Assembly (NCBI GenBank): GCA_937924525.1
Contig: CALDSU010000004.1
Span: 124,001-188,000 of the forward strand
Source: an uncultured Bryobacteraceae bacterium
GTDB lineage: Bacteria > Acidobacteriota > Terriglobia > Bryobacterales > Bryobacteraceae
Direction: 5' to 3'
DNA: 64,000 bases
This document shows positions 44,251 through 64,000 of the stretch, in pieces. The notes below the pieces were generated by a model, which saw only the letters and a list, made by a program, of their open reading frames with translations, was not told the origin of the DNA and ran no database searches. Made by a program: the position numbers and the translations under genes. Numbering within the stretch: the first letter of the stretch is position 1; the number at the start of each line of letters is the position of its first letter.

Positions 44251-44329
44251 CGCCGATTCCTTCTTGGAAAAACAATAGGGCGCTTAGCCGGTCGGCCGCG
44301 CGCCCTTTCCAGAGCCTCTTTGCGAAACG

Positions 44330-44824: not shown

Positions 44825-44990
44825 GTTTCGAAATCCCTTTCGCGTGATATGCCTGCGCGTTTCGTCGAGCTTGGCGTCGATCCGTATATCGCGCGGCATA
44901 AGGAGGGATTCGGGTCGCGGCGCGGGCGGTGCACGATTTTCGATGAAAAACAAATTCCTGCCGCACCGTGCGGCCATCATCTAACCGAAG

Positions 44991-46547: not shown

Positions 46548-46592
46548 GCGCCATTTCTCACACCAGCCCCAACTCGACGTATGATGTAGCGA

Positions 46593-47624
46593 ATGCCGCA
46601 GGTCATCTACGATCCGGGGCGGATTGATTTTACGCGGCCCGGAAAACATCACTACCAGGTCGCCTTCGGGTACGACGGCGCGTGGGGATTCGCCCTGGTG
46701 CCCCTTACGGTCATCAACGGGACGCGCCCGGCGCCGGAGGGCGCGCCGGAACCGCCGGGCGTCTACATCAACGGCGGAAACCACGGCAACGAATACGAGG
46801 GGCAGGTGGCGGTCAAGCGCCTGGCGCACGACCTGGATCCCGCCGCGCTGCGGGGGCGCGTGATTCTGATCCCGCAGCTCAACCAGCCGGCTTGCGTGGC
46901 AGGCACGCGCGAATCGCCGCTCGACGGGGTGAACATGAACCGCGCGTTTCCGGGAAATCCGCGCGGCTCCATCACGTCTCGCATCGCGCACTTCGTCAAG
47001 ACTCGGGTGTTTCCGCAGGTGCGCGTGGTGATCGACATTCACTCCGGGGGCAGGGAAGGCGCATTCGCCATGTGCACGTCGTTTCATCCCATGGCGGACC
47101 AGGCGCAGCAGGCGGAAACCGCGCGCGTGGCGAAACTGTTCGATACGCCGGTGGTGATGATCTACTCGCGGTCGCTCCATGCCGGGCTGCTGCCCGATGA
47201 GGCGGAGGACGAAGGCAAGATCACCATCGGGAGCGAATTTGGCGCCGGCGAGACCACCAGCATTCCAGGTGTGAAGTTCGCCTACGAGGGCTGCCTGAAC
47301 GTGCTGCGGCACTACGGGCATCTGGAAGGCGAGATCCAGCGGATCGATCCCGCACGTCCGCATCCGCCGCGGCTGATCGCCGCGCCCACCCTCGACTACT
47401 ACGTTCCCTGCCCGTCCGGCGGCGTCTGGGAACCCGTTGTGCCGCTGGGCGCGGACGTCCGGCAGGGGGACCTGTTGGGGCGTATCCACGATTTCGACGA
47501 TCACACGTCCGCGCCCGTCGAAATCCGCTCGCCGCGGGACGGCGTCCTGATGATGGAATACCTGGGCGCGGTGGTCCGCAAGGGCGCGACGCTGTTCGTC
47601 ATCGGGGAGGAGATCGAGCTGTGA
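46593..47624 (+). CDS. succinylglutamate desuccinylase/aspartoacylase-family zinc deacylase
   Basis: 343 aa. Zinc ligands His64 and Glu67 in GGNHGNEYEG and His150 in VIDIHSGG are present, with the MNRAFPG loop that binds the carboxylate end of the substrate. The ~90-residue C-terminal beta-barrel (PCPSGGVWEPVVPLGADVR...) is typical of the group. It cleaves an acyl group from an acylated amine; the exact substrate is unknown. First gene of a coupled series: the next gene starts in a GTGA overlap. Confidence 0.87.
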   Translation: MPQVIYDPGRIDFTRPGKHHYQVAFGYDGAWGFALVPLTVINGTRPAPEGAPEPPGVYINGGNHGNEYEGQVAVKRLAHDLDPAALRGRVILIPQLNQPACVAGTRESPLDGVNMNRAFPGNPRGSITSRIAHFVKTRVFPQVRVVIDIHSGGREGAFAMCTSFHPMADQAQQAETARVAKLFDTPVVMIYSRSLHAGLLPDEAEDEGKITIGSEFGAGETTSIPGVKFAYEGCLNVLRHYGHLEGEIQRIDPARPHPPRLIAAPTLDYYVPCPSGGVWEPVVPLGADVRQGDLLGRIHDFDDHTSAPVEIRSPRDGVLMMEYLGAVVRKGATLFVIGEEIEL

Positions 47625-48772
47625 AGATCACCGCGGTGGAGGCCCTGGTCCTCAAGTCCGAGGGCCTCTACCAGAGCCCGGAGGGCAGCGAAGAGCCGCC
47701 CGGCGCGACCTACCTCGGCCTAGTCAAGGTGTCGACGGACGCCGGCATCTGTGGGTATTCCGACGTGGAAACGTCCGCGTTCGTGGCCAAGGCCGCCATC
47801 GAAGCGCCCCGGTGGAGCGAGCCCGGCATGGAATGCTTCGACGGACTGGCCTCGCTGGTGGTGGGCGAGAATCCGCTGGAGGTGGAAAGGCTCTGGTACA
47901 AGATGTGGCGCGGCAGCGTGTACTACGGGCGCCGCGGCGTGGCCATTCAGGCGATTTCCGCCATCGACATCGCCCTGTGGGACATCATGGGCAAGTTCTA
48001 CGGGCAACCGATCCACATCCTGCTTGGCGGCAGCAATTGCACGCGCGTGCGCGCCTACGCCAGCACGCTGTTCCGCCCTACGCCGCACGCGATGCGCGAA
48101 GCCGCGCGGCGATACCTGGATGAAGGGTTCACCGCGATCAAATTCGGCTGGGGCGTTTTCGGCCGCGACGCGGATCACGATGTCCGCCTGGTGGAAGCGG
48201 CGCGCGAGGCGATGGGGGATCGACGGGACCTGCTGGTGGATACCGGCTGGTTCGTCGAGCGCACCCCGAAACAGGCGATTCAACTGGTCCACCGGCTGGA
48301 GCCGTTCCGGCCTTTCTTCATTGAGGAACTGCTGCATCCGGAGGACTACGACGGCTACGCGCGCGTCGCCGAGGCGGTCGATACCCCGGTGGCGTGCGGC
48401 GAGCAGGAGGGAACCGAGTGGGGGTTCCACGAGCTGATTTACCGCGGCAAGGTGGACATTCTGCAGCCGGACCTGACGCGCTGCGGCGGCTTCACCGCGG
48501 CGCGGAAGATCGTCCACATGGCGGAACTGGCCAACCGGCTGGTGATTCCGCATTCGTGGTCGTCCGATCTGCTCACCGCCGCGTCGCTGCACCTGAACGC
48601 GTTTCAACGCCGTCCCGTCCTAATTGAATTCAATACGTCGCAGGGCCCTTTGAGCCGCGCCATGGTGCGCGAGCCGCTGCGGCTGGAGGACGGCCATGTC
48701 GCCGTGCCGCAGGGTCCGGGACTGGGAGTCGACGTCAATGAAGACACTGTCCAGCGCTACCGCATCGCCTGA
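47621..48772 (+). CDS. enolase-superfamily enzyme 1 (mandelate racemase/acid-sugar dehydratase type)
   Basis: 383 aa. N-terminal capping domain and a (beta/alpha)7-beta barrel. The second-strand catalytic Lys lies in AIKFGWG, metal ligands in LVDTGW, FIEELL and CGEQEG, and the catalytic His in VIPHSWSSD, giving the mandelate-racemase/acid-sugar dehydratase arrangement. Likely dehydrates an aldonic or aldaric acid. GTG start at 47621 overlaps the deacylase stop; its end overlaps the MFS gene by 35 bases. Confidence 0.88.
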   Translation: MKITAVEALVLKSEGLYQSPEGSEEPPGATYLGLVKVSTDAGICGYSDVETSAFVAKAAIEAPRWSEPGMECFDGLASLVVGENPLEVERLWYKMWRGSVYYGRRGVAIQAISAIDIALWDIMGKFYGQPIHILLGGSNCTRVRAYASTLFRPTPHAMREAARRYLDEGFTAIKFGWGVFGRDADHDVRLVEAAREAMGDRRDLLVDTGWFVERTPKQAIQLVHRLEPFRPFFIEELLHPEDYDGYARVAEAVDTPVACGEQEGTEWGFHELIYRGKVDILQPDLTRCGGFTAARKIVHMAELANRLVIPHSWSSDLLTAASLHLNAFQRRPVLIEFNTSQGPLSRAMVREPLRLEDGHVAVPQGPGLGVDVNEDTVQRYRIA

Positions 48773-50018
48773 GTCCCCGGCTTCCGCGCTGCCCTCCTGG
48801 CGCGCCTGGAGCGTCGTAGGCCTGCTGTGGGTGGCCTTCCTGATCAACTACGTCGACCGGCAGGTGGTGTTCTCGATTTTTCCCGTGCTGCGGCGGGACA
48901 TGGGTTTCACCAATGAGCAGCTAGGCCTGGTCGGCACCGTTTTTATTTGGGTTTACTCGCTGGGCAACCCGATTGTCGGGCGGCTGGCGGATTTGTTTTC
49001 GCGCAAGCTGCTGATCCTGTCGAGCATCGTCCTGTGGAGCCTGGCCACGCTGGGGACGGGCTGGAGCCAGAGCCTCGGGGCGTTTCTCGGCTGGCGCGCC
49101 ATGATGGGCATCACCGAGGCGATGTACGTGCCGCCGGCGCTGGCGGTGATCAGCACGCTGCACTCGACGGCGACGCGCTCGACGGCGCTGGCGCTACACG
49201 GGACGGCGCAATTCGCCGGCATCGTGCTGGGAAGCTGGTTTGGCGGCTGGATGGCCGACGTCGCCGGATGGCGGATGGCGTTTGTCGTGCTGACGGTGGT
49301 GGGTCTTGCCTATACGCCCGTGCTGGCCTGGGGACTGCGGGGCGTCAAGGTGCAGCCCGCGGCCTCGGAACGCGGAGCCAAGGCGCCGCCGGTGTCGGCC
49401 CTGTTCCACAATGCCACCTATCTGGCGCTGGCGGCGGCTTTCTTCTTTCTGTGCGTGATGCTGTGGATGATCTACGCCTGGCTGCCGAATCATGTGTACG
49501 AGAAAATGGGGCTTTCGCTGGCCGAGGCGGGGTTGACGGCGACCTTCTGGGTGCAGTCCGGCAACATCATCGGCAACCTGGCCGGAGGTTTGCTGGGCGA
49601 CCGCCTGTCGGGGAGAATTCGCGCGGCGCGCTTCCTGATGATTTGCGGGGGACTGGCCATTTGCGCCCCGTTCGCCTGGGCGGCGCTGGCTACCGCGTCG
49701 CTCGCCACGCTGAAACTCACCGCGTTCGCTTTCGGCCTGTTCGCCGGTTTCATGACCGGCAATGTCTTCGCCGCCTGCTGCGACGTCAATCCGGTGTCGG
49801 CCTACGGCTTATCGACGGGCGCGCTCAACATGGTGGGCGGACTTTCCGGCGGCGCGGCGATTTTCGTAGCCGGCCGCCTGAAAGACACGCTGGGAATTCA
49901 CGGGTTGATGGCTTGGGCCGCCGCCTTCGCCGTGGGCGCGGCCGTGCTGCTCGCTTTTACCGTGCGGGTGCGTTTCGCCCGCGATTACGCCTCCGCCCGC
50001 GCGGGACTCACCTCATGA
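48738..50018 (+). CDS. MFS transporter 1 (hexuronate/acid-sugar porter-like)
   Basis: 426 aa, 12 predicted helices. The NYVDRQVVFSIFPVLRRDMGFTNEQLGL opening is typical of the anion:cation symporter/ExuT-like branch of MFS, and GRLADLFSRK is the loop 2-3 motif. The ATG at 48738 lies inside the end of the preceding gene; no later start fits the first helix. Clearly paralogous to the porter at 51125. Its stop overlaps the next start (ATGA). Confidence 0.86.
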   Translation: MKTLSSATASPESPASALPSWRAWSVVGLLWVAFLINYVDRQVVFSIFPVLRRDMGFTNEQLGLVGTVFIWVYSLGNPIVGRLADLFSRKLLILSSIVLWSLATLGTGWSQSLGAFLGWRAMMGITEAMYVPPALAVISTLHSTATRSTALALHGTAQFAGIVLGSWFGGWMADVAGWRMAFVVLTVVGLAYTPVLAWGLRGVKVQPAASERGAKAPPVSALFHNATYLALAAAFFFLCVMLWMIYAWLPNHVYEKMGLSLAEAGLTATFWVQSGNIIGNLAGGLLGDRLSGRIRAARFLMICGGLAICAPFAWAALATASLATLKLTAFAFGLFAGFMTGNVFAACCDVNPVSAYGLSTGALNMVGGLSGGAAIFVAGRLKDTLGIHGLMAWAAAFAVGAAVLLAFTVRVRFARDYASARAGLTS

Positions 50019-51115
50019 AAATTACCGAAATCGTTGCACAACCGCATACGCTGACGGTCGATCCGTCGATCGCCATTCGCAGTTCCCTGGGCTTTCACCG
50101 GGTGTCGCGCTACGTGCTGGTCACGGTCCGGACCGACGCCGGCGTGGAAGGGTATGGCGAAGCCACGGTCATGCCCGTGTGGAGCGGCGAAACGCAGGAA
50201 AGCGCCCTGGCCGCGATCCGGACCATACTCGCCCCCGCGCTGGTGGGCGCGGATGCGCGGGATCTGACGGCGGCCATCGCCACCATGGACCGCATCCTCT
50301 ATCAGAACTGGTTTGCCAAAGCCGCCGTGGAGATGGCGCTCTGCGACGCCGTGGCGCGCAGCCTCGGGGTCGGCGTCTGGCAACTGTTCGGAGGACGGCG
50401 GCGGGAGCCGGGCATCTGGCTCAAGATGTCGATCGGCGCGTTCTCGCCCGAGGACGCCGCGCGGATCGCGTTGTACGCCAAAGCGGCCGGACTGCGCTCG
50501 TGCAAGGTAAAGGTGGGCACGGGCGTGGCGGCCGACCTTGCGCGGGTCGCCGCGGTGCGCGACGCGGTCGGCCCCGACTTTCGCGTGGGCGTGGACGCCA
50601 ACGGCGGCTGGTGCGAGGCCGAGTGCGTCGCGGCGCTGGCCGGCCTGGAGAAACTCGGCGTCAACATGATCGAGCAGCCGCTGCCGCGCGGCGGTGGCGA
50701 GTTCCGCGCCTGCGCGCGCATCCGCCGGCGCACCTCGATTCCGCTGATGCTGGACGAATCGATCTTCTCAATCGAAGAGGCCCTGGAAGCCATCCGCGCG
50801 GACGCCTGCGACATCATCAGCATTTACCCCGGCAAGAATGGCGGCATGCACCGGTCGGTGCAGATCGCGAAGATGGCCGAGGCCGCCGGCCTCGAGTGCG
50901 TGATCGGCAGCAACCTCGAGTGGGACCTGGCCAGCTCCGCCATGCTGCAAGTGGCGGTGTCGATTCCCAACCTGTCCGAGCGCGTGGACCACGACATCAT
51001 CGGCGCCTTTTATCATCAGCAGCCGGTCACCGAGCCCGGCTTGCGCGTCGAGAGCGGCCGCGCGTGGTTGCCGGAAGGGCCAGGATTGGGCCTGAAGCTG
51101 AAAGCGCTCGCGTAG
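50015..51115 (+). CDS. enolase-superfamily enzyme 2 (muconate-cycloisomerase/epimerase-like)
   Basis: 366 aa. Barrel motifs: KVKVG (Lys-x-Lys) on strand 2, metal ligands in GVDANGGW, MIEQPLP and MLDESIF, and a candidate Lys in IYPGKNGGM on strand 6. This is the muconate-lactonising subgroup arrangement (racemase, epimerase or cycloisomerase activity). ATGA overlap with the upstream porter; 9 bp before the next porter. Confidence 0.87.
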   Translation: MKITEIVAQPHTLTVDPSIAIRSSLGFHRVSRYVLVTVRTDAGVEGYGEATVMPVWSGETQESALAAIRTILAPALVGADARDLTAAIATMDRILYQNWFAKAAVEMALCDAVARSLGVGVWQLFGGRRREPGIWLKMSIGAFSPEDAARIALYAKAAGLRSCKVKVGTGVAADLARVAAVRDAVGPDFRVGVDANGGWCEAECVAALAGLEKLGVNMIEQPLPRGGGEFRACARIRRRTSIPLMLDESIFSIEEALEAIRADACDIISIYPGKNGGMHRSVQIAKMAEAAGLECVIGSNLEWDLASSAMLQVAVSIPNLSERVDHDIIGAFYHQQPVTEPGLRVESGRAWLPEGPGLGLKLKALA

Positions 51116-51124
51116 AGCATTGCC

Positions 51125-52372
51125 GTGCGGGCCCTGTTTCGCGAACACCGGCGCGCCTGGCAAGTGGTCGGCCTCCTCGGGGTCGCATTCTTTCTCGCCT
51201 ACGTCGCGCGGCAGTCCGTGTTCTCCATCTTCGGGGTTCTGCGCGCCGACCTGGGCTTCACGGAAACGCAGCTCGGTTTGACGAGCACGGTCTTCCTGTG
51301 GGTCTACGCCTCGATGAACCTGTTCGCCGGGCAGATCGGGGACCGGTTTCCCAAGCACCAGGTGGTGACGGCCAGCGTGGCGCTGTGGGCGCTGGCGACG
51401 GCATGGATGGGGGCGGCGGCTTCGCCGGTGGCGCTGCTGGCGGGCCGTGCGGTCCTGGCCGTCACCCAGGGAGTCTACGCACCCACCGCGGTGGCCTATA
51501 TCTCCCAGGTGCACTCACCGGCGACGCGCGGCAGCGCCATTACGGCCCACGGCACCGCGCAATACCTCGGCGTGATGGTGGGCGGCTGGTACGGGGGGTA
51601 TCTCGCGGAAGCCTGGAGCTGGCGCTGGATGTTTTGGCTGGTGGCTTTGGCCACGTTCGCCTACGCGGCGGTGTTGTACTCGCTGCTGCGGCGGAATCCG
51701 GCGGCGGCTGCCGCCACCGGCGCCGCGAGCGCCTCCGCCCGGGTTTCCTCTGTTTGGCCGATTCTGCGGACGCCTTCCTACCTGACGATCTCGCTGGCGT
51801 TTATTGCGGTCAACGCGATGCTCTGGATCGTCTACACCTGGCTGCCGGACATTTTGCAGAAGAAATACTCGCTGTCGGCGGCCTCGGCCGGTTTCAACGC
51901 CACGGCTTACGTGCAGATCGCGATGATCGCGGGACTGGCGGCGGGCGCGCCGCTGGGCGACTGGCTGACCCCGCGCCGGCCCCGGGCTCGGCTGTGGCTG
52001 ATGGCCGCGGGACTGCTGGTGAGCTCCCCCTGCGTGTACGGCGTCGTCGCGGCGGACACCCTGGGCGAAATGCGCCTGGCGGCCCTCGGCTACGGTTTCT
52101 TCAAAGGCGTGTTCTCCGGCAATGTGTGGGCCGCCCTGCTGGCCGTAGTTCCCCATGACCGGCGCGCCTTCGGCGTCGGCTTCACCAACGCCTTGGGCGG
52201 AATGGTGGGGGGCGTTGCGTCGTACCTGGTGGGCTACTTCCGCGGACACTATGCGGTGGAGACCATGCTGGGCGCGGCGGGCGTCCTGGGCTGGGTCGCG
52301 ACGCTGGCGCTCGGCTATGCCATCCGCCGCACCTACCTGGCGGATTGCGCCCGCGTTTGCCAGCGCGCTTAG
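51125..52372 (+). CDS. MFS transporter 2, paralogue of MFS 1
   Basis: 415 aa, 12 helices. The run AYVARQSVFSIFGVLRADLG, then FTETQLGLTSTVFLWVYA, aligns closely with the same region of the porter at 48738, as do the HGTAQYLGVMVGGWYGG and HGTAQFAGIVLGSWFGG segments. An enzyme-porter pair was probably duplicated. GTG start at 51125. Last gene of the plus-strand series; the minus-strand DUF3830 gene ends 38 bp beyond. Confidence 0.86.
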   Translation: MRALFREHRRAWQVVGLLGVAFFLAYVARQSVFSIFGVLRADLGFTETQLGLTSTVFLWVYASMNLFAGQIGDRFPKHQVVTASVALWALATAWMGAAASPVALLAGRAVLAVTQGVYAPTAVAYISQVHSPATRGSAITAHGTAQYLGVMVGGWYGGYLAEAWSWRWMFWLVALATFAYAAVLYSLLRRNPAAAAATGAASASARVSSVWPILRTPSYLTISLAFIAVNAMLWIVYTWLPDILQKKYSLSAASAGFNATAYVQIAMIAGLAAGAPLGDWLTPRRPRARLWLMAAGLLVSSPCVYGVVAADTLGEMRLAALGYGFFKGVFSGNVWAALLAVVPHDRRAFGVGFTNALGGMVGGVASYLVGYFRGHYAVETMLGAAGVLGWVATLALGYAIRRTYLADCARVCQRA

Positions 52373-52410
52373 TTTCGGAGAGACGAGCCGCGAGCGGGAG
52401 ACGCCGGCGG

Positions 52411-52881
52411 CTACCCTGCAACCCGTTCGAACCGCAGTGGTTGCGGGCCCTCCAGCCGCACCCGGCGGCAAGCGTCGGCGAACGCGACCCAGTCCGTTTT
52501 CCAATCGCCCGGGATGCGGGCGAACAAGCTGCACACCGTGTTCTGGCCTTCCGGCCCGCGCAGTGTAACGCCGCGCCCGTAGACCAGACAAATTTCTCCG
52601 ATCTGCCTCCGTCCGGTGGTGACGCTGCCTCCGCCGTCGTAAAAGTACAGGATCTCGCCCGGCAGCGGCAGCGTGACCAGGTTCTCATGGGGCATGGGCT
52701 TGGCCTCCGGCGTCAGAACAAAGATTTCCTGTCCGGAAAACATGCCATGCTGCGGCTTCAGTTCGAGCGGCAGCATCTCCCAGACGAGCTGCGCCGTATG
52801 GGGCGCTTCGTCATCGAGCAGATCGGCGACCACCGACTCGCCGGTGACTGCAAACGTCACGCGCATGCTCCGTTTCGCCAT
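52411..52881 (-). CDS. DUF3830 (cyclophilin-like fold) protein
   Basis: 156 aa. MRVTFAVTGESVVADLLDD, then ENLVTLPLPGEILYFYDG and the IPGDWKTDWVAFADACRRVR tail match DUF3830, a cyclophilin-like family commonly beside amidase and enolase-superfamily genes. Biochemical role unknown. GGAGGA six bases before the ATG at 52881 decides the start. It lies 2 bp after enzyme 3 on the same strand, so the two are coupled. Confidence 0.85.
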   Translation of the reverse strand: MAKRSMRVTFAVTGESVVADLLDDEAPHTAQLVWEMLPLELKPQHGMFSGQEIFVLTPEAKPMPHENLVTLPLPGEILYFYDGGGSVTTGRRQIGEICLVYGRGVTLRGPEGQNTVCSLFARIPGDWKTDWVAFADACRRVRLEGPQPLRFERVAG

Positions 52882-52883
52882 GG

Positions 52884-54002
52884 CTATTCCTCCACGGTCC
52901 ACTCCGCCAGGACCTCCTCGTTCAGCGTAACCCCGAGTCCCGTGCCCTCGGCCGGGTACAGGAACCCGTTGTCGATGCGCGTAGCGGGCTGGACGATTTC
53001 CCTGGTGTAGCGGAGCGGACCGAATGTCTCCCAGGCGTGCGTGAAGTTGGGCACGGCGACGCCGAGGTGCGCCGCCGCGGCCGTGCCCACGCCCATTTCG
53101 GCCTGGCTGCCGAGGATGCAGGGAATGTCCAGCGCCGCCGCCAGCGCGAAGATCTGCGCCGCCGCCAGCAGACCGCCGGCTTCGCAAATGTAGACGTTGA
53201 ACACGTCGGCGGCCTCGGCGCGCGCGATTTCGTAAGCGTCGTGCAGCGTTTGCAGGCTCTCATCCACCATCACGGGCGCGATCGCCTGCTGCCGCAACAA
53301 ACGCAAGCCGGATAAGTTGTTCCGAGGGAGCGGCTGCTCGAACCACTCGACGGCCGCCTCCGCGGCGAGGGCGCGCATCGCTTGGGAGGCCTGCGGCACG
53401 GAGCGCCAGGCCTCGTTGGCATCCAACCGCAGCGGGGTCTGGCGGCCCACGGCGGCGGCCACTGCGCGCACCGCGGCGACATCGTCGTCAAGCGCCCGGC
53501 CCACTTTCAGTTTGATCGCGTGAAAGCCCGCCGCCAGCCCTGCCCCCGCGTCCCGGGCCATCTCCTCCGGCGTCTTCTGGTAGATTCCCCAGGCGAGCGG
53601 AACGCGTTCCCGCGCCCGGCCGCCGAGCAGTTGCCACACGGGGACGCCATAATGCTTGCCTGTCCAGTCGAGCAGCGCCATTTCGAACGCGGCCCGGAGG
53701 TAAGGCGCGCTGAGTTCGCCCGCCAGCGTCGCGTCGATCAGGCTCAGTAACTCGGGGAGGCGGCGCGGGTCGCGCCCGACCAGACGCGGCACGATCAGAC
53801 GCCGCGCGGCGTGGCACAACGTGAACCCGATACGCGGATAGGTGATCGAGATCTCGCCCAGACCTTCGCGGCCGTCATCCACGCGCAGGCGGACGATCCC
53901 GAACTCCGACACGCTGACCGGGGTGGCCCCGGTCGTGCCCGAGCGGACCGCCTCCTTGCGAGGCCCCCGCACCGGGCACACGTCGATGGCTTCGATGTTC
54001 AT
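52884..54002 (-). CDS. enolase-superfamily enzyme 3 (muconate-lactonising type)
   Basis: 372 aa from the ATG at 54002 (MNIEAIDVCPVRG, a usual family start); an ATG at 54032 adds ten residues. Strand 2 AIKLKVG (Lys-x-Lys), metal ligands in RLDANEAW, WFEQPLP and MVDESLQ. Distinct in sequence from enzymes 1 and 2. Divergent from the dimethylformamidase-like gene, with a 52-bp interval that must hold both starts. Probably an epimerase or dehydratase in the same pathway. Confidence 0.87.
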   Translation of the reverse strand: MNIEAIDVCPVRGPRKEAVRSGTTGATPVSVSEFGIVRLRVDDGREGLGEISITYPRIGFTLCHAARRLIVPRLVGRDPRRLPELLSLIDATLAGELSAPYLRAAFEMALLDWTGKHYGVPVWQLLGGRARERVPLAWGIYQKTPEEMARDAGAGLAAGFHAIKLKVGRALDDDVAAVRAVAAAVGRQTPLRLDANEAWRSVPQASQAMRALAAEAAVEWFEQPLPRNNLSGLRLLRQQAIAPVMVDESLQTLHDAYEIARAEAADVFNVYICEAGGLLAAAQIFALAAALDIPCILGSQAEMGVGTAAAAHLGVAVPNFTHAWETFGPLRYTREIVQPATRIDNGFLYPAEGTGLGVTLNEEVLAEWTVEE

Positions 54003-54054
54003 GCCGGAAAGGCGATAGGATATACCATTCATCCCGCTTCTGGAAAGGCTGCCG

Positions 54055-55680: not shown

Positions 55681-55902
55681 AGGATACGCCGGGGAGCGGC
55701 CTCGGAAGCGAACGAGCCTCCGGGGAAGAGGGTGCGCCTTGTCCGTTGTTCCGTCACGCCGGGGACGGTTCCGTAAATCCGCCCGCATGCGGCTGCCTGC
55801 GCCGCCCGCCGGGGCCCGTCAGCCAGCGTTTGGGATTCCGCATGAAAACAAGGTGATTGGGGCGCTCGGTCCGGCTCTCCTTACGCTTGTCTCAGAAAAA
55901 CG

Positions 55903-55931
55903 TTGACATTCGTGAAACGTGAGCCTAGCAT
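55903..55931 (+). promoter_or_regulatory. strong sigma70-type promoter for the TonB-receptor operon
   Basis: TTGACA (55903-55908), 17-bp spacer, TAGCAT (55926-55931). A consensus -35 is rare in this GC-rich window. Transcription would start at about 55938, inside the palindrome below. Confidence 0.65.
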
Positions 55932-55936
55932 GAATC

Positions 55937-55952
55937 TAATCGATATCGATTA
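55937..55952. promoter_or_regulatory. perfect 16-bp palindrome TAATCGATATCGATTA
   Basis: Perfect dyad symmetry over 16 bp, beginning six bases after the -10 and covering the expected transcription start. This is a classic repressor position. The protein is not known: a LacI-type or the nearby GntR regulator at 62586 are the candidates. Confidence 0.65.
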
Positions 55953-55975
55953 TTTGCATCAGGAACGTATCGCCC

Positions 55976-58900
55976 ATGTCTGGCACCCTGCTTCGCCTTT
56001 GCCTGCTGACCGGCGTCCTCGCGGCCATCCTGCCGGCACAAACCACCACGGGACGCATCGTGGGAGTGGTCCGCGACTCCTCGGGCGCCGTCATCCCGAA
56101 CGCGACCGTTCAGGTCCGCAACCTCGGCACGAACGTCGTCCGCGAGACATCCACGAGCGCCGCTGGCGACTACGTCGTCACCAACCTGCCAATCGGTACG
56201 TACGAGGTTTCCGCCTCGACCCCCGGATTCAAGCGGTTCGTCCAGGGCTCGGTGCCGCTAGCGATCGAGCAGACCGTCCGCGTGGACGTGACTCTTCAGC
56301 CGGGAGAGGTCACGGAAAGCATCGCTGTCACCGCGGGAGCGGCGCTTATCGAAACCGAGCAGTCGAGCGTCTCGAAGGTCGTCGACAATCAAACGATTGT
56401 GCAACTGCCGCTTACCGCGCGGAACTTCATCTCGCTAGGCAGCCTGGTGCCGGGGACGACGGCGGGCGCGCCGGGCAACAGCATCGTGCGCAGCCGCCAG
56501 GAAGGGGTGGCTCTGACCGCGAATGGCCAGCGGGCGGAGAACAACAACTTCCTGCTCGACGGGGCGGACAACACGGCGAACTTCGTGGGCGTCGTGGTGG
56601 TGGTGCCGTCGATTGACGCGATCCAGGAGTTCAAGGTTCAGACGTCAAACTACTCGGCCGAGTTCGGCCGCGCCGCGGGCGCGATTGTGAACATCGCCAT
56701 CAAATCCGGCTCGAACAACTTCCACGGCACGGCCTACGAGTTTCTGCGCAACGACAAGATGGATGCGCGGGACTTCTTCTCCCCGGAGCGGAACCCGCTG
56801 CGCCGAAACAATTTCGGCGGGTCGCTCGGCGGACCGGTCCTGCGCGACAAGACATTCTTCTTCGTGAACTACGAGGGGCTGCTGGAACGGCGGTTCTCCT
56901 ATCCAGGCTCCATCGTGCCGACGCGCGCGCAGCGCCAGGGCGACTTTTCGGGAGGTCCACCGATCTTCGACCCGCTTTCGGTCACCAACAACCAGCGCGC
57001 CCCGTTCGCCAATAACCGCATTCCGGCCGATCGCATCCACCCGGCCTCACAGCGCATCATCCCGATCTGGCCGGAACCCAACAATCCCGGCGACCCGGCG
57101 CGCAACTTCCTGGGCAATTTCAATAACCCGCTGAACCGGCATCAGTTTCACGTCCGCGGCGACCACTACCTCACGCAGCGGGACCAGATCATGGCCCGCA
57201 TCTCCTGGACCGGCACCGATGACATCTCCCGCGCCGTCGCTCTCGGGGGGCAGACCACCGAGAACGCCCACCAGAGCGGGGTGGTTGGCTGGACGCGCAT
57301 TCTGTCGCCCGCGATGCTGAACGATCTGCGCTTTTCCGCGATGGATTACAACTTCAACCTGCTGCCTGAAGGTCTAGGGACGGACTACGCCTCGCAGTAC
57401 GGTCTGCCTAGCTTCGCCAGCCGCGAGGACATCCAGCGCCACCCCTCGATCTCGGTGCGCAACATGGTGGGAGCGGGTGGCGGAGATACCACTCCGTTGT
57501 TCCGCCGGGAGGTCTTCTACCAGGTGGTGGAGCAGTTTACGGTTACAAAAGCCCGCCATACCGTCAAGATGGGCGGCGATATCCGCCTGTACCGTTCGAA
57601 CAACTTTCAGCCGCAGAGCGCCAGCGGGCTGTACAGTTTCACGGGCGCGTATACGGCGCAGCGCGGCGGTCTCTATCCGCACGGTTTCGCCGACTTCCTG
57701 CTGGGCGTGCCGCAATCGCAGCGGATCCTGATCCCCATCAGCTATGACGCCACCCGTATTCACAATGGCCGGGTGAACCTCTACGTGCAGGACGACTGGC
57801 AGATCCACTCCCGCCTGACGATGAACATCGGCCTGCGCTGGGAACGCGACGGCAATTGGTACGAGACCCAGGACCGTTGGGCGTACATCGACTTCCACAA
57901 GGGCGACATGGTCTATCCCCGCACTTTCCGCAACCCGTTCACCCTGCCGTTCCGCCACCGGACCGAAGAGATCCGCTCGATGAAGCCGCCGACCAACAGG
58001 GCGTTCGCCCCGCGCATCGGCTTTGCCCTGCGGCCCTTTGGCGACAACCGCACCGTCCTCCGTACGGCGTACGGCATCTTCTGGGGCGTGCCCCAGGGCT
58101 TCATCCTGCTCAACAGCGCGTCGACTCCACCTCCGTTCTATTTGCGCTCGGAATTCAACAGCGGCGCCACCGATCCGGAACTACGGTTTGGGGTATTTCC
58201 GGGCGTGTCGGCGGAAAACTTCATTCCGCGCGTCCCGGCCGTCTTCACGCATGACCCGCGGAACTTCTCGAACGGGTACACGCAGCAGTGGAACTTCGGC
58301 ATCGAGCGCCAGATCGGACGGAACCTGGCCGTGTCGGGATCCTACGTGGGCAACAAGGCGACTCACCTCGACCGGCGCTGGGAGGGCAACCCCGCGCTGC
58401 CCCCGGGGCCCGGCGCGATCCAGGCGCGGCGCCTGTTCCCGCATCTGGGCGCCACGGTCTACCAGGCCTCGAACAGTTTTTCCACCTATCACTCGCTTCA
58501 GATGTCGGCCGAGCGCCGGTTCAGCAAGGGCTTGCAGTTCCTCGCCGCGTATACGTGGTCGAAGTCGCTGGACGACACCTCGACGTGGAGTGGACTCGGC
58601 GGCCAGGAGAGCCAGTTCGCGCAAGATCCGCGCCGGTTCGATCTCGAAAAGGGGCGGTCCGGATTTGACCTGCGGCACCGCTTCACGCTTTCGTATGTGT
58701 ATGAACTGCCGTTCCGGTTCCGCAATCGTTGGTTGCACGGCGTCCTCGGCGGCTGGCAGCAGGCGGGCATCGTGACGCTCCAGACCGGGTTCCCGCTCAC
58801 CGCGACCGTGGGCGGCGACATTCCCAACGCCGGCACCCGGACGACGCGGCCAGACCTCAACGGGCCGGGCAACCTGCCTCCCGGCGAGCGCCACATCGAC

Positions 58901-59188
58901 CGCTGGTTCAACACGGCGGCCTTCACGCAACCCGCGGCCTTTCACTTCGGCACGGCGGGACGCAATCTCATCGACGGTCCCGGGACGCGGGCCTACACGG
59001 CGTCGCTGATGAAGATGTTTGAGATCACCGAAGGCCACCGCCTCCAGTTGCGCGGCGAGTTCAACAACGTCCTGAACCACCCGAACTTCGGCCTGCCCAA
59101 CGCGTCTTTCGGCAACGCCGCCTTCGGATTTATTCGCTCGGGCGGCGGCGGACGCGAGACGCAGTTGGGATTGAAGTACATTTTCTAG
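55976..59188 (+). CDS. Oar-like TonB-dependent receptor
   Basis: 1070 aa. Signal peptide, carboxypeptidase-regulatory domain (about 25-105, GRIVGVVRDSSGAVIPNATV), a plug domain with LPLTARNFISLG and the LDGADNTANFV segment, then a large outer-membrane beta-barrel ending in an aromatic residue (LGLKYIF). Members of this Oar-like group import or bind large glycans or peptides. First gene of an operon with the symporter (7 bp) and the sialidase-like protein. The ATG at 55976 gives the expected signal peptide. Confidence 0.94.
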   Translation: MSGTLLRLCLLTGVLAAILPAQTTTGRIVGVVRDSSGAVIPNATVQVRNLGTNVVRETSTSAAGDYVVTNLPIGTYEVSASTPGFKRFVQGSVPLAIEQTVRVDVTLQPGEVTESIAVTAGAALIETEQSSVSKVVDNQTIVQLPLTARNFISLGSLVPGTTAGAPGNSIVRSRQEGVALTANGQRAENNNFLLDGADNTANFVGVVVVVPSIDAIQEFKVQTSNYSAEFGRAAGAIVNIAIKSGSNNFHGTAYEFLRNDKMDARDFFSPERNPLRRNNFGGSLGGPVLRDKTFFFVNYEGLLERRFSYPGSIVPTRAQRQGDFSGGPPIFDPLSVTNNQRAPFANNRIPADRIHPASQRIIPIWPEPNNPGDPARNFLGNFNNPLNRHQFHVRGDHYLTQRDQIMARISWTGTDDISRAVALGGQTTENAHQSGVVGWTRILSPAMLNDLRFSAMDYNFNLLPEGLGTDYASQYGLPSFASREDIQRHPSISVRNMVGAGGGDTTPLFRREVFYQVVEQFTVTKARHTVKMGGDIRLYRSNNFQPQSASGLYSFTGAYTAQRGGLYPHGFADFLLGVPQSQRILIPISYDATRIHNGRVNLYVQDDWQIHSRLTMNIGLRWERDGNWYETQDRWAYIDFHKGDMVYPRTFRNPFTLPFRHRTEEIRSMKPPTNRAFAPRIGFALRPFGDNRTVLRTAYGIFWGVPQGFILLNSASTPPPFYLRSEFNSGATDPELRFGVFPGVSAENFIPRVPAVFTHDPRNFSNGYTQQWNFGIERQIGRNLAVSGSYVGNKATHLDRRWEGNPALPPGPGAIQARRLFPHLGATVYQASNSFSTYHSLQMSAERRFSKGLQFLAAYTWSKSLDDTSTWSGLGGQESQFAQDPRRFDLEKGRSGFDLRHRFTLSYVYELPFRFRNRWLHGVLGGWQQAGIVTLQTGFPLTATVGGDIPNAGTRTTRPDLNGPGNLPPGERHIDRWFNTAAFTQPAAFHFGTAGRNLIDGPGTRAYTASLMKMFEITEGHRLQLRGEFNNVLNHPNFGLPNASFGNAAFGFIRSGGGGRETQLGLKYIF

Positions 59189-59195
59189 TCCTGGG

Positions 59196-60683
59196 ATGAC
59201 CGCCCTCGACTACACGATCCTTGCGGTCTATCTGCTGGGGGTGATCTCCCTGGGCGGGTACTTCTGCCGCGGCCAGAAGTCGCTGCGGGAGTACCTGTTG
59301 GGGGGGCGGTCGATTCCCTGGTGGGCGGCGGCGTTTTCCGGCATCGCCACGATGGCCAGCGCCGTGGGCTATCTCGGCGCGCCCGGCCAGGCGTTTCACT
59401 CGGACCTTACCTACTGGCAACTCCGCCTCGCGATTCCGTTTGCGATCCTGGCGCTGTGCCTGCTGTTCATTCCGATTTTCTACAAGCTGGACGTTTATAC
59501 GGCGTACGAGTATCTGGAGCGCCGCTTCGACCTGAAGACGCGGGTGCTGGCCGCCTCGCTGTTCACGCTGCTGAAGTGCGGCTATCTGGGCATCGTGATC
59601 TTCGCCCCGGCGCTGGTCCTGTCGCGCATGACGGGCGTCTCCGAGGTCTGGATCGTGCTGATCACCGGCGCCGTCACCACGCTCTACACGATGCTCGGCG
59701 GCATCCGCGGCGTAGTCTGGACGGATTCGCTGCAACTGGGTGTCCTGGTGGGGGGCGCGGTGGCGGCCTTCTGGATTGTGACCTCGCGGGTGCAAGGCGG
59801 CGTGGCCGCAGTCTTCCGCGTGGCGGGCGACGAAGGTAAACTTCGCATGGTGGATCTGTCGCCGAGCCTCACGGCCGAGTTCACGTTCTGGGGCGGCATG
59901 ATCGGCGGGACGTTCCTGCTGCTCAGCCAGTACGGCGTCGACCAGGCGGAGCTGCAGCGCTTCCTCACGACGACCTCCGTCCGCCACGCGCGGCTGGCCG
60001 TCAGTTGGACGATCGTCGCTTCGGCCGTGTACGGCAGCCTGCTGTTCCTCATCGGCAGCGCGCTCTATGTCTTCTATCTCCAGCATCCGGACAAAGGGGG
60101 ATTGGCGCTCAAACCGGACCAGGTGTTCCCGAAGTTCATCCTCGACGAGATGCCCCCGGGGCTGCGAGGGGTGCTGATCGCGGGCGTGCTGTCGGCGGGC
60201 ATGTCGACCATCAGCTCCGTGCTGAACTCGCTGACCACGGTCGCGCTGCGCGACTTCCACCACCGGCTGTCCGGGCGCGAGGGTTCGGTCCCGATGGCGC
60301 GGGCCTTGACGGTCGGGTTCGGCGCTCTGGGGACGGGGGTGGCGCTGTTCGGCGACTGGTTCGGAGGAATCCTGGTGGCGTCGGGAAAGATCGCGAACTT
60401 CTTCGGCGGCAGCCTGGTGGGGATTTTTCTGTTAGGCATGCTGGCGCCGCGCGTCAACGGGACGGCGGCGTTCTGGGGCGCGCTTACCGGGTTCGCAGGC
60501 GTGGCCTGGGCTGGGTCGCAGACCCAGGTCTCGTGGCTCTGGTACGGCGCGATCGCGGCCGGCGTGGCGTTCGGCTCGGGTCTGCTGTACAGCCGGTTTC
60601 TGCCCGCGCCGGGGTCCGCTCAACTATACGGTCTGACGTGGCGTCACCGGCGCCGTTTGGCGGCCAGGGAGGCATCATCATGA
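59196..60683 (+). CDS. sodium:solute symporter (SSS family)
   Basis: 495 aa, about 13 helices. The opening DYTILAVYLLGVISLGGYF, FLLGGRSIPWWAAAFSGIATMAS-like helix 1 region and the LSAGMSTISSVLNSLTTV sodium-site helix are SSS (sialic acid/sugar) family signatures. It would carry the product released outside or in the periplasm across the inner membrane. It lies 7 bp after the receptor and overlaps the next gene by 4 bases (ATGA). Confidence 0.92.
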   Translation: MTALDYTILAVYLLGVISLGGYFCRGQKSLREYLLGGRSIPWWAAAFSGIATMASAVGYLGAPGQAFHSDLTYWQLRLAIPFAILALCLLFIPIFYKLDVYTAYEYLERRFDLKTRVLAASLFTLLKCGYLGIVIFAPALVLSRMTGVSEVWIVLITGAVTTLYTMLGGIRGVVWTDSLQLGVLVGGAVAAFWIVTSRVQGGVAAVFRVAGDEGKLRMVDLSPSLTAEFTFWGGMIGGTFLLLSQYGVDQAELQRFLTTTSVRHARLAVSWTIVASAVYGSLLFLIGSALYVFYLQHPDKGGLALKPDQVFPKFILDEMPPGLRGVLIAGVLSAGMSTISSVLNSLTTVALRDFHHRLSGREGSVPMARALTVGFGALGTGVALFGDWFGGILVASGKIANFFGGSLVGIFLLGMLAPRVNGTAAFWGALTGFAGVAWAGSQTQVSWLWYGAIAAGVAFGSGLLYSRFLPAPGSAQLYGLTWRHRRRLAAREASS

Positions 60684-62404
60684 ACCAGAAGCGAAGAGAG
60701 GCGCTGACCGCGCTGCTAGGCGGCGTGGCTGGTGCTGCCTGTCGCACGGAGGCGCCGCGCGCCCAGCCGATGAGAGAGATCCCCGCCGCGGCGCGCTTTA
60801 CGGCGGCGGAAGAGGAAGGTTGGTATCTCTCCGTCGCCGGCATCGCCGAGGCGCAGGGAAACCTGATCGTCACCTATCGCCGGTCCGATGCGCATCGAGC
60901 TTCCGACACCTCCATCATGACGGCGCGCTCGGAGGACGGCGGTCGAACCTGGAAGGATCACCGCCCCATCCACCATCTGAGCTGGGAGAACCACCGCGCC
61001 TGCTGGGTCGCGCCGCAGCTTACCGCCTTACGCGACGGGAGGATGGTCCTGGTGGCGGACCGCGGCGCAAAAATCAACAAGGACGACTGGCCGATGCTGA
61101 GCCGCTGGCAGCAGAAGCCGCTCGGCATGTCGAATCATCTCTTCTGGAGCCGCGATGGAGGCCAGACCTGGGACGGTCCGCACAAAATCGACGACTGGGG
61201 CGGCGAGCCCGGCTACATCCTCGAGCTGGCCGACGGTACGCTCGTCTTCACCCGCACCGAAGCACAGCGAACGGAGAAGCTGGCCCATCCGCTGCCGCAG
61301 TGGGGCGAATACTACTACCGCAACACGGCTGTCTTCTCGGACGACGGCGGGAAAACCTGGAGGCGGACGGCGATCGTCGCCGACGACCCGTATTACTCGG
61401 ACTGCGAAGTAGGGCTCGCCGAATATGCTCCCGGCAAGCTTCTGGCGGCGACGCGCTGCGGCGATGCCGGCGCGCAGTTCGGGCAGCCGAGCCGCCTCAT
61501 CTATAGCGGCGATGCGGGGCGCACGTGGGGCAAGCCGAAACTGGCGCCTTTCTACGGGCATCGCGTGATTGTCGGCAAGCTGCAATCGGGCCGGCTGCTG
61601 GCGGTTTTCCGCAATGCGTGGGGCACGACGAGCAGCTATGCGTTCGTCTTCGACGCGGAGGAAAGCTTCGACTATCAGCCCAACTCCTGGATCTGGGAGG
61701 AATCGCGCTGCCGCCTGCGGGACGGCGTGATGGAACTGGACACCGCCGATGGCCGGCAAGGCGCCGCCGAGTTCACGCTGTACCCCTGCGAGTCCCTGAG
61801 CAGCCCGGTCGAAATCGAAGCGGAACTGGCGGTGCGCGAGGCGGGCGCGGAAGCGTGCCAGATCAGCGCCGGCTGCTGGGTCCGCTTCCGCCCGGACCGC
61901 GTCGAACTGGCCGACCGTCCCGAGCAGGGCTTCGCGATCGACGCCACGCGGTTTCACCGCTACCGGCTGGTGCGGCAAGGCGGCAAACTCACGATTCTGG
62001 CCGATGGAGAGACGAAGCTGGAAGCCCCGGTGGAAGGGATCGCCGTGCGGCAGGTCCGCTTCGGGAACCGTTCCTCGGCGCGCGGCCCCCGCGCCGCGCC
62101 CGAATGGTCGAACGGCGGGAACTCCTCGTGGCGGGCGGTCTCCGCGCGGGTGCGCAATCCCAATGATCACGCCATCGAGTGGGCGTGGCAGGCGACGCGT
62201 GGCTTCCCCGATCAGTTCCGGCGTGACCGCCTCGTCCTGCTCGAGCGCAACGGCAGCTTCTCCCCCGGGAACAATGGCTACCCCGACTGGATCCAGCGGC
62301 GCGACGGGACCATTCTCATCGCCGACTATACGAGCTCCGAGCCGCCCCGCGCGCGCCCGATCCTGCGCGTGTATCGGGTCCGCGAGGAGGAGGTGCGCGG
62401 GTGA
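60680..62404 (+). CDS. exported sialidase-like BNR/Asp-box protein
   Basis: 574 aa with a lipoprotein- or Tat-like N-terminus (RREALTALLGGVAGAAC). Four Asp-box motifs lie at the propeller turns: SEDGGRTW (about 84), SRDGGQTW, SDDGGKTW and SGDAGRTW. A jelly-roll-like insert (about 350-470, VEIEAELAVREAG) interrupts the C-terminal half. An exo-sialidase or other glycan hydrolase fold is supported; the Arg triad cannot be assigned, so activity is not proven. Coupled to the symporter by overlap. Confidence 0.82.
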   Translation: MNQKRREALTALLGGVAGAACRTEAPRAQPMREIPAAARFTAAEEEGWYLSVAGIAEAQGNLIVTYRRSDAHRASDTSIMTARSEDGGRTWKDHRPIHHLSWENHRACWVAPQLTALRDGRMVLVADRGAKINKDDWPMLSRWQQKPLGMSNHLFWSRDGGQTWDGPHKIDDWGGEPGYILELADGTLVFTRTEAQRTEKLAHPLPQWGEYYYRNTAVFSDDGGKTWRRTAIVADDPYYSDCEVGLAEYAPGKLLAATRCGDAGAQFGQPSRLIYSGDAGRTWGKPKLAPFYGHRVIVGKLQSGRLLAVFRNAWGTTSSYAFVFDAEESFDYQPNSWIWEESRCRLRDGVMELDTADGRQGAAEFTLYPCESLSSPVEIEAELAVREAGAEACQISAGCWVRFRPDRVELADRPEQGFAIDATRFHRYRLVRQGGKLTILADGETKLEAPVEGIAVRQVRFGNRSSARGPRAAPEWSNGGNSSWRAVSARVRNPNDHAIEWAWQATRGFPDQFRRDRLVLLERNGSFSPGNNGYPDWIQRRDGTILIADYTSSEPPRARPILRVYRVREEEVRG

Positions 62405-62585
62405 ACGATTCCGCCCCGGTCAGCCGCTTTCGTGAGCGATGTTCGCTTCCGCCGCTTTGGTTTCGACATTCGGATGGCCATCATGATCTGCCAGAAGAAG
62501 GGCGACGGCCGCGCCTGCGGGAGGGAGACGCTCCGGCCTCCTGTTCAGGCGAAGCGCGGCGCCGCACGCTAGGAGAGAAATTGAC

Positions 62586-63263
62586 ATGCTGACCACAGAC
62601 CGCAGATTCCCTGCGATGAAGGCCGGTCCGCTGCGTTCCCGCGTCGTCAACCTGCTCAAGGACGCCATCTTCTCAGGCAAGCTCGAGCCAGGCGAGGCGC
62701 TGCCCGAAATGCGTCTGGCGCGGGAATTGCAAGTCAGCCAGGCCACGATACGCGAAGCGCTGGTCCAGCTCGAACAGCTTGGGCTGGTGGTCCGGGAGGC
62801 CAATCGCGGGACGAACGTCACCCGGTTCTCCGCCCGCGAGATTGAAGAGCGGGCGCAACTGCGCATTCTGCTCGAAGGCGAAGCCATGGAGCAGGCCGCC
62901 CGCCAGCTCACCGAGGGCGACTACGCGCGGCTGGCCGCACTGCAGGCCGCCTTCGAGGAGAAGATCGACGGCGACGATCATTTCGGCCGCATCGAGGCGG
63001 ATCTGGCCTTCCATCGCTACATCTGGGAGCGCAGCGGCAACACGACGCTGCTGCGCCTGCTGGAGCAGTTGACCACACCTTTGTTTGCGTTCACCTGCAT
63101 GCTGCGCAGCCGGAAGATCGTCACCTCGCGGGTGGTCGTGAATCCGCATGAGCGCCTGATTGAGGCGATGCGCTCGGGGGACCGCGAATTGATGCGGAAG
63201 CGCATCCGTGAGCACATTGAGACGTCCTCCGCCGCCTTCCTGCGCGCGCAGGCCGGGCGCTAG
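62586..63263 (+). CDS. GntR/FadR-family transcriptional regulator
   Basis: 225 aa. N-terminal winged helix (LARELQVSQATIREALVQL, then LGLVVREANRGTNV) and an FCD ligand-binding domain with the metal-site pattern DLAFHRYIWERSGN and the later His in RKRIREHIETS. FCD regulators answer to organic acids such as glucuronate, gluconate or lactate. AGGAGAG precedes the ATG. It is 181 bp after the sialidase-like gene; that gap holds no clear gene. Co-transcribed with the aldolase (12 bp). Confidence 0.92.
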   Translation: MLTTDRRFPAMKAGPLRSRVVNLLKDAIFSGKLEPGEALPEMRLARELQVSQATIREALVQLEQLGLVVREANRGTNVTRFSAREIEERAQLRILLEGEAMEQAARQLTEGDYARLAALQAAFEEKIDGDDHFGRIEADLAFHRYIWERSGNTTLLRLLEQLTTPLFAFTCMLRSRKIVTSRVVVNPHERLIEAMRSGDRELMRKRIREHIETSSAAFLRAQAGR

Positions 63264-63275
63264 GCTAGGAGACCC

Positions 63276-64000
63276 ATGATCCGCAACCGCCTGAAGGAGA
63301 AGCTGGACGCGGGAACCACGGCGCTCGGCGCCGCCATTTCGATCCCTTCCACCGAAACCGTGGAGCTGCTGGCGAGGATGAGCTTCGACTGGCTGTTCGT
63401 CGATACCGAGCATGCGCCGCTCAGCCCGGAGTTATTGGGACCGTTGCTTCAGGTGGGGCGCCTGGGCGAAGCGACGCCGGTGGTGCGCGTGGCGTGGAAC
63501 GACCCCGTCGCCATCAAGAAATGCCTGGACGTGGGCGCCCAGGGCATCATCGTGCCGTGGGTCAACAACCGGGCGCAGGCCGAAGCCGCCGTGCGCGCGG
63601 CACGCTACCCGCCGCAGGGGCTGCGCGGTTTCGGACCCCGCTGGCTGGTGCTCGCCGGCGAGGACCTGATGACCTACAACCGCGAGGCCAACGAACAGAT
63701 CCTGGTCATCGTACAGATCGAGAGCCTGGAGGCGGTCGAGAACCTCGAAGCCATCCTGTCGGCGCCAGGAGTCGACGGTTTCATGATCGGACCCGCGGAC
63801 CTCGCCAATTCGATGGGGTTCCCAGGCGAGTTCGGCAATCCCGCGGTGGAGGACATGATCGCGCAGATCGTCGAGCGCGGGCGCCAGGTGAATGCGCTGG
63901 CCGCTTACCCGCCGGCGCCGCCGGCGGTCTGTCAGCAGCGGATCGAGCAGGGCTTCCGCATGGTCTGCCTGGGCAGCGACCTGTCTATGCCGCGGACGGG
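63276..64000 (+). CDS. HpcH/HpaI-family aldolase (3' partial)
   Basis: 241 residues visible, open at the window end; the family is ~250-260 aa. LFVDTEHAPLS with the metal-loop His, GAQGIIVPWVNN, the GLRGFGPRW loop, VQIESLEAVENLE (metal Glu) and VDGFMIGPADLANSMG (metal Asp) mark a class II 2-keto-3-deoxy-aldarate/rhamnonate-type aldolase. It cleaves a 2-keto-3-deoxy acid to pyruvate (or tartronate-linked product) and an aldehyde, the expected last step after acid-sugar dehydration. TAGGAGA supports the ATG. Confidence 0.92.
   Translation, partial: MIRNRLKEKLDAGTTALGAAISIPSTETVELLARMSFDWLFVDTEHAPLSPELLGPLLQVGRLGEATPVVRVAWNDPVAIKKCLDVGAQGIIVPWVNNRAQAEAAVRAARYPPQGLRGFGPRWLVLAGEDLMTYNREANEQILVIVQIESLEAVENLEAILSAPGVDGFMIGPADLANSMGFPGEFGNPAVEDMIAQIVERGRQVNALAAYPPAPPAVCQQRIEQGFRMVCLGSDLSMPRT

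Follow-up and report, generated by a model that had tools for sequence, protein, structure and literature searches.

Gene content of the locus

The window analysed here is a 64,000-nucleotide (nt) stretch from the 5.52-Mb genome of an uncultured Bryobacteraceae bacterium (G000, contig C4, positions 124001-188000). From position 46593 to its end it carries genes that the original prediction had read as one 17-kb catabolic district for an acylated or amide-linked acid sugar. Our analysis divides them in two. The first part, 46593-55680, pairs hydrolases of C-N bonds with enolase-superfamily proteins, and we propose, with middling confidence, that it holds most of a catabolic guild that imports and degrades an amide-bearing hydroxy acid and whose genes, in most relatives, are scattered among several loci. 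The second part begins at 55976 and is treated last. All thirteen genes named in the original prediction are present at their coordinates, as judged by Pfam and a check of the start codons. Those of the first part, hereafter the guild genes, are the following.

46593-47624, + strand: AstE, zinc deacylase of the AstE/AspA family (PF24827, AstE_AspA, 115 bits)
47621-48772, + strand: ENO1, enolase-superfamily protein of the mandelate racemase (MR) type, probable acid dehydratase (PF13378, MR_MLE, 211 bits)
48738-50018, + strand: MFS1, first major facilitator superfamily (MFS) porter (PF07690, 164 bits; relative of PDB 6e9n)
50015-51115, + strand: ENO2, enolase of the muconate-lactonizing enzyme (MLE) subgroup, KxK motif present (PF13378, 181 bits)
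51125-52372, + strand: MFS2, second MFS porter (PF07690, 155 bits)
52411-52881, - strand: DUF3830 protein, 2 nt past ENO3 (PF12903, 84 bits)
52884-54032, - strand: ENO3, MLE-subgroup enolase, KxK motif present (PF13378, 186 bits); comparison with orthologues suggests that the start is perhaps at 54002 rather than 54032
54055-55680, + strand: DMFB, protein resembling the beta subunit of N,N-dimethylformamidase (DMFase) (PF20254, DMFA2_C, 191 bits)

AstE, ENO1, MFS1 and ENO2 form a single overlapping run on the + strand. The proposed coupling of the genes by overlaps is borne out at AstE/ENO1 (4 nt), ENO1/MFS1 (35 nt), MFS1/ENO2 (4 nt) and, in the second part, at the symporter/sialidase-like junction (4 nt), but not around ENO3 and DUF3830, which lie on the opposite strand, nor at DMFB, which is divergent from ENO3 and followed by a 295-nt gap. 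The two porters are 40% identical and the three enolases mutually 24-33% identical, so neither set arose by recent duplication. The host genome has 44 MR_MLE_C matches, or 43 places once the tail of a split gene is dropped, and ENO1, ENO2 and ENO3 are the only triplet within 4.9 kb, a span chosen post hoc, after the cluster had been seen; when the 43 places were positioned at random, at least one such triplet arose in 3% of trials (0.03 expected). A search for a shared operator found no 14-mer (up to 2 mismatches) that the ENO3/DMFB gap has in common with any of the three other promoter regions. The remaining promoter pairs have 2 matches each, against shuffle means of 0.4-1.05, within GC-rich stretches. 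Rfam at gathering scores gave no matches in 44000-64000.

AstE and ENO1 form a unit

AstE has among its solved relatives PDB 3cdx and the DoeB structure 6twm, and some of these relatives are N-acetyl amino acid deacylases. The motifs HGNE and NMNR, together with His150 and Glu215, are invariant across 11 aligned sequences, and we take them to be the zinc-site and substrate motifs of the AspA/DoeB group. In these motifs AstE resembles DoeB and the AstE/AspA deacylases. It is unlike DoeB in its pairing with an enolase and in its score against the DoeB model, 219 bits, about half of the cut-off of 402.7, which places it outside the DoeB equivalog. ENO1 finds its best model in galactonate dehydratase (213 bits, cut-off 311) and solved relatives in PDB 3sjn, 4ggb and 5olc. 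As expected of an MR-type dehydratase, its residues K174, D207, E261, D284 and H311, presumably the metal ligands, the Lys and the His-Asp dyad, are invariant in 11 sequences.

The two genes travel together. Among the first 11 AstE loci from relatives (at least 53% identity), an ENO1 that is 70-81% identical adjoins AstE in 10; at the eleventh, L048, the contig stops inside AstE. A profile scan of 84,980 species genomes returned 125 AstE relatives, of which 80 were kept, giving 79 loci. An ENO1 of at least 63% identity lies in 51 of these, and in 48 it is no more than 300 nt away from AstE. Other partners are amidohydrolase_2 (37 loci), an IclR regulator (25), an RraA aldolase (24), MFS1 (12), an ENO2-type enolase (10), DMFB (4), MFS2 (4) and ENO3 (2). 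A cultured relative, Bryobacterales bacterium F-183, also carries the AstE-ENO1 pair (L097). Two of the AstE loci, L080 and L088, are titled Akkermansia muciniphila, yet their AstE (61-62%) and ENO1 (73%) are Bryobacterales-like, and the titles are probably wrong.

DMFB and its neighbours

A profile search with DMFB matches PDB 8huy and 6lvb. Its structure model (predicted TM-score, pTM, 0.85) retrieves DMFase or N-acetyl-(R)-beta-phenylalanine acylase at Foldseek ranks 1-9, in a loose superposition with a TM-score of about 0.5 and a root-mean-square deviation of 15-18. As modelled, DMFB shares the fold and the sequence family of the DMFase/N-acyl-beta-phenylalanine acylases. The iron site of N,N-dimethylformamidase is described in PMC7686228 as Tyr399, Tyr440 and Glu521 with His519 near. 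Tyr213, His334 and Glu336 of DMFB, invariant in 24 sequences, align to Tyr399, His519 and Glu521, whereas the Tyr440 column holds no clear Tyr in DMFB and falls in a weakly modelled region. DMFB is therefore like the Paracoccus enzyme (PDB 6lvb) in fold, C-terminal domain and three site residues, and like the acylase 8huy in fold and C-terminal domain. It differs in length (541 versus 772-776 residues), at Tyr440 and in having enolases as genomic partners.

DMFB occurs at 50 places besides the window, and 35 neighbourhoods were read, several from sister species; gene calls in the neighbourhood scripts are crude, being open frames chosen by third-position GC content (GC3). Within 5 kb of DMFB we found an MFS porter in 17 loci (14 at at least 35% identity), a creatininase-like gene in 17 (12 at at least 50%, one of them the query's own locus), a formamidase-like gene in 6, amidohydrolase_2 in 5, RraA in 3, and ENO1, ENO3, an ENO2-type gene and AstE in 4 each. 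At the threshold used, E 1e-12, these matches include distant paralogues, namely AstE at 29-31% in two of its four loci (L171, L173), creatininase-like genes at 28-35% in 5 of the 17 and MFS porters at 23-25% in 3 of the 17. A second family of C-N hydrolase accompanies DMFB in 21 of the 35 loci (14 at at least 50% identity), some enolase of the three types in 11, and one or the other in 24. For ENO1, the four occurrences compare with a rough chance expectation of 0.06 (35 loci; one ENO1 per 6.5 Mb). In L177 (genome G133) DMFB, ENO1 and an ENO2-type gene are tightly packed on the same strand, and in the actinomycete Microlunatus speluncae (L126) DMFB overlaps AstE by 4 nt. Around the latter pair (L126:2367-11991) lie apparent peptide-type ABC transporter genes before it and an alcohol-dehydrogenase-like gene after it, names that are taken from the starts of the flanking sequences only.

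Hydrolase genes near ENO3

Of 23 ENO3 places outside the window, 17 have a formamidase-like gene no more than 5 kb away, 8 at at least 67% identity; the family was assigned by Pfam for three of these genes. An earlier count, in which every ENO3 locus had such a gene (8 of 8), came from a partial set and was dropped. Other partners within the same distance are amidohydrolase_2 (13), MFS (13), DMFB (5) and a creatininase-like gene (4), and at least one of the formamidase-like, creatininase-like and DMFB genes is present at 20 of the 23 places. In L054, L163, L173 and L187 the formamidase-like gene sits between head-to-head ENO3 and DMFB. In the window these two genes also stand head to head but lack a formamidase-like gene between them; the distance between their starts is about 52 nt, or 22 nt if the longer ENO3 start is used. 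L244 (G246) resembles this arrangement, with a gap of about 30 nt. The search for a formamidase-like gene in the window genome found a 40% match on a different contig only; the 20 kb read around that match hold no guild gene. L242, which comes from a different family of the class, holds a formamidase-like gene, ENO3 and DUF3830, the last two ordered as in the window, and is the sole recurrence of the DUF3830-ENO3 pair; at five DUF3830 loci from relatives none of the other guild queries matched.

Co-occurrence and linkage across the order

We scored the guild genes in 250 genomes of the order, the same set for each gene to judge from the recurring genome handles, with E-value cut-offs that differ by gene from 1e-15 to 1e-130. 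AstE is held by 57 genomes (G009 is scored without it although a contig end cuts an AstE there), ENO1 by 56, DMFB by 41, ENO3 by 24, DUF3830 by 16, ENO2 by 14 and the sialidase-like gene of the second part (SIAL), used as a control, by 9. AstE and ENO1 occur jointly in 53 genomes (12.8 expected), DMFB and AstE in 36 (9.3 expected), DMFB and ENO1 in 37, and DMFB and ENO3 in 24 (3.9 expected). Since congeneric genomes are not independent and no tree was used, we also counted genera, which gave 26 (8.7 expected), 15 (5.1 expected), 15 and 8 (1.5 expected), respectively. ENO3 is wholly nested, with DMFB, AstE and ENO1 present in all 24 of its genomes.

Physical linkage is another matter. AstE and ENO1 lie at most 300 nt apart in 46 of the 53 genomes with both, and at most 12 kb apart in 45 of 52 once the window genome is excluded. 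With the same exclusion, DMFB is within 12 kb of ENO3 in 6 of 23 genomes, of ENO1 in 4 of 36 and of ENO2 in 2 of 10, and no pair involving SIAL or DUF3830 is so linked in these genomes; contig ends depress all such counts. The guild pieces tend to be present or absent together. On the chromosome they mostly sit at separate sites, and the window gathers them. The original prediction had asked whether its units occur independently in most genomes: in physical linkage they do, in presence and absence they do not. Complete independence of AstE-ENO1 from DMFB, which the first 20 neighbourhoods had suggested, was overturned by the wider loci and the co-occurrence counts.

Several findings weigh against a single guild. 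Of the 35 other genomes that hold both AstE and DMFB, just 3 have them within 12 kb of each other; the figure is 0 of 8 for AstE and ENO2, and 1 of 23 for AstE and ENO3 as well as for ENO1 and ENO3. At the cut-off used, DMFB is missing from 21 of the 57 AstE genomes, and AstE from 5 of the 41 DMFB genomes. ENO1 is missing from 22 of the 79 AstE loci, among them all 7 distant proteobacterial relatives (36-40%), and is a weak relative only in 6. Nine of the 17 formamidase-like genes linked to ENO3 are just 34-38% identical to the query, and most come from one genus; at G196, G096 and G240 (a 3.2-kb contig) the formamidase-like, creatininase-like and DMFB genes are all missing within 5 kb of ENO3. 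ENO1, both porters, AstE and the aldolase of the second part each score below the cut-off of the equivalog or subfamily model named for them. The 2-keto-3-deoxy-acid aldolase to be looked for in an acid-sugar pathway is absent from 46593-55680, where Pfam identifies neither an aldolase nor a regulator. Finally, the control is not null: SIAL co-occurs with DMFB in 6 of its 9 genomes (1.5 expected), with ENO3 in 4 (0.9 expected), with AstE in 5 and with ENO1 in 4, more weakly than the guild pairs do, so habitat or genome size may explain part of the signal.

These points, above all the separate loci, the genomes with AstE or DMFB only and the behaviour of the control, are what one would see if at least three unrelated salvage routes (AstE-ENO1; ENO3-DUF3830; DMFB) were simply neighbours here, their co-occurrence driven by lifestyle or genome size. 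We consider this possible but doubtful, as it would leave unexplained the complete nesting of ENO3 and the repetition of the adjacencies in varied orders, with DMFB and AstE adjacent in an actinomycete too. Because of the co-occurrence, the adjacency and the 20 of 23 ENO3 places with a hydrolase, we take the pairing of C-N hydrolases with acid-dehydrating enolases, which had been predicted, to be real for 46593-55680 and across genera.

ENO2 and ENO3 are probably not racemases

PDB 2p88 and the dipeptide epimerase 1jpm are among the best matches of known structure for ENO2 and ENO3, and both enolases retain the KxK motif and the metal ligands. These relatives, and the N-acetyl amino acid deacylases among those of AstE and DMFB, would suit a scheme in which an N-acyl amino acid or dipeptide is racemised by ENO2 or ENO3 before one isomer is hydrolysed by AstE or DMFB. 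Lys268 of 1jpm, which we take to be the second catalytic base required for racemase/epimerase action, is replaced by Tyr in all 16 sequences of alignment A4 that reach the column, the window's ENO2 and ENO3 among them; in ENO3 the residue is Tyr281. Of 15 same-genome paralogues that could be parsed from 20 fetched, 13 are MR-type and 2 are MLE-type with Lys at this position. The second Lys that marks N-acylamino acid racemases and dipeptide epimerases is thus absent, racemisation or epimerisation is unlikely, and the substitution argues that ENO2 and ENO3 are left with elimination or cycloisomerisation. ENO1, moreover, is MR-type, and we find the racemisation-deacylation scheme very improbable.

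An ENO2 relative (56%) at L203:2854-9737 is flanked by histidinol-dehydrogenase-family and SDR-like genes, with RraA and amidohydrolase_2 nearby.

A predicted route

Judged from the gene families, the conservation of active-site motifs and the way the genes co-occur and adjoin, 46593-55680 most likely serves to hydrolyse and dehydrate an amide-bearing hydroxy acid, in steps whose order is predicted. The D-galactonate transporter is the best model for both porters (MFS1 110 bits, MFS2 100 bits, cut-off 395), and a DgoT-like porter would import the anion. The C-N hydrolases (DMFB and AstE, and in relatives the formamidase-like and creatininase-like enzymes) would split off the amide or acyl part. 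Abstraction of the alpha-proton and loss of water, catalysed by the enolases, would then yield a 2-keto-3-deoxy-type acid, and in relatives an RraA-type aldolase may carry out the final step. That the substrate is an acid sugar, as first suggested, is plausible from family resemblance.

A bolder version reverses the order. The Tyr-type MLE enolases ENO2 and ENO3 might be a new kind of dehydratase that converts an N-acylated or amide-bearing beta-hydroxy acid to an enamide, after which AstE, DMFB or the formamidase-like partner would take off its acyl or amide group and so free the keto acid and the nitrogen together. Such an undescribed amide-first route to 2-keto-3-deoxy acids would be common in Bryobacterales and partial in Actinobacteria; we regard it as a long shot.

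Relation to known systems

Besides the DMFase and DoeB families, the closest described system is non-phosphorylative sugar-acid catabolism with enolase-superfamily dehydratases, as in the enolase expansion of SAR202 (PMC10444878, PMC6946804). Multi-copy MR-type dehydratases and organic-anion porters are shared with the guild, as are pyruvate-class aldolases, which on the guild side are found in relatives. Unlike in that catabolism, the guild enolases are accompanied by four families of C-N hydrolase, and two of the enolases are of the MLE subgroup with Tyr at the beta-6 position. The main text of PMC6946804 mentions neither aspartoacylase nor dimethylformamidase; PMC10444878 was not checked for these words. 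The original prediction knew of no described pathway with this combination, and our literature search agrees: none of the titles searched describes it, and in the library searched no paper was found with a pairing of dimethylformamidase with mandelate racemase, of aspartoacylase with mandelate racemase, or of formamidase with enolase superfamily. The combination points to a route for an amide-bearing, sugar-like acid in Acidobacteria that is not yet worked out.

Many of the carbon sources used by Acidobacteria, an abundant group in soil, are unknown. Joint assay of the recurrent amide hydrolases and enolases could reveal a nitrogen-bearing acid that these bacteria use, and the Lys-to-Tyr change in two of the enolases defines a testable active-site type. 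The corrected boundary means that the sialidase-like part is not to be assayed with the guild.

A probably separate locus downstream

The second part comprises the following genes, the last two extending into or lying in the adjoining sequence.

55976-59188, + strand: Oar-like outer-membrane receptor (PF25183, 782 bits; PF13620)
59196-60683, + strand: SSS symporter (PF00474, SSF, 126 bits)
60680-62404, + strand: SIAL, sialidase-like BNR protein (PF13088, BNR_2, 61 bits)
62586-63263, + strand: GntR/FCD regulator (PF07729, PF00392)
63276-64000, + strand: HpcH/HpaI-family aldolase, first part (PF03328, 110 bits; full end at L001:4055)
L001:4039-5649, beyond the window: FADox, FAD_oxidored gene overlapping the end of the aldolase (PF12831, 331 bits)

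SIAL relatives occur in 8 other genomes of the 250, and in these SIAL never lies within 12 kb, on the same contig, of AstE, ENO1, DMFB, ENO2, ENO3 or DUF3830. Six of the loci were read. Four of them (L213-L216) hold FADox and the SSS symporter, L214-L216 also the Oar receptor (52-55%) and GntR, and L181 and L182 neither FADox nor SSS; L215 and L216 have DHDPS-family and RraA-like genes within the run. None of the six contains AstE, ENO1, ENO2, ENO3, DMFB or DUF3830 at E 1e-12. With four of six loci keeping much of the set and none carrying a core guild gene, the stretch from 55976 onward has the look of a distinct system, a locus of its own for uptake and cleavage that includes a pyruvate-class aldolase. 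On the evidence of these SIAL loci and the absent linkage we reject the claim of one 17-kb district, and a single pathway including Oar, SSS, SIAL and the HpcH aldolase seems to us very unlikely, even though the genes are contiguous, most share one strand and the aldolase would fill the missing last step.

The HpcH aldolase scores 192 bits against the HpaI model (cut-off 368.8). Sialic acid (nan) catabolism, with a nonulosonic acid as the possible substrate, was considered through a check for N-acetylneuraminate lyase: the window locus carries HpcH instead, and the DHDPS-family gene of L216 has a weak family score against the TIGR nanA model (77 bits, cut-off 382).

Before the Oar gene, just after a promoter-like TTGACA-TAGCAT pair noted by eye (from 55903), stands a perfect 16-base palindrome at 55937-55952. 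It is unique in the window even at up to 3 mismatches, and no match at up to 4 mismatches was found upstream of Oar in L214-L216; it is a possible operator. At the other end of the region, a gene related to deoxyribodipyrimidine photolyases (PF04244, 44991-46547) lies on the same strand as AstE and stops 45 nt before it.

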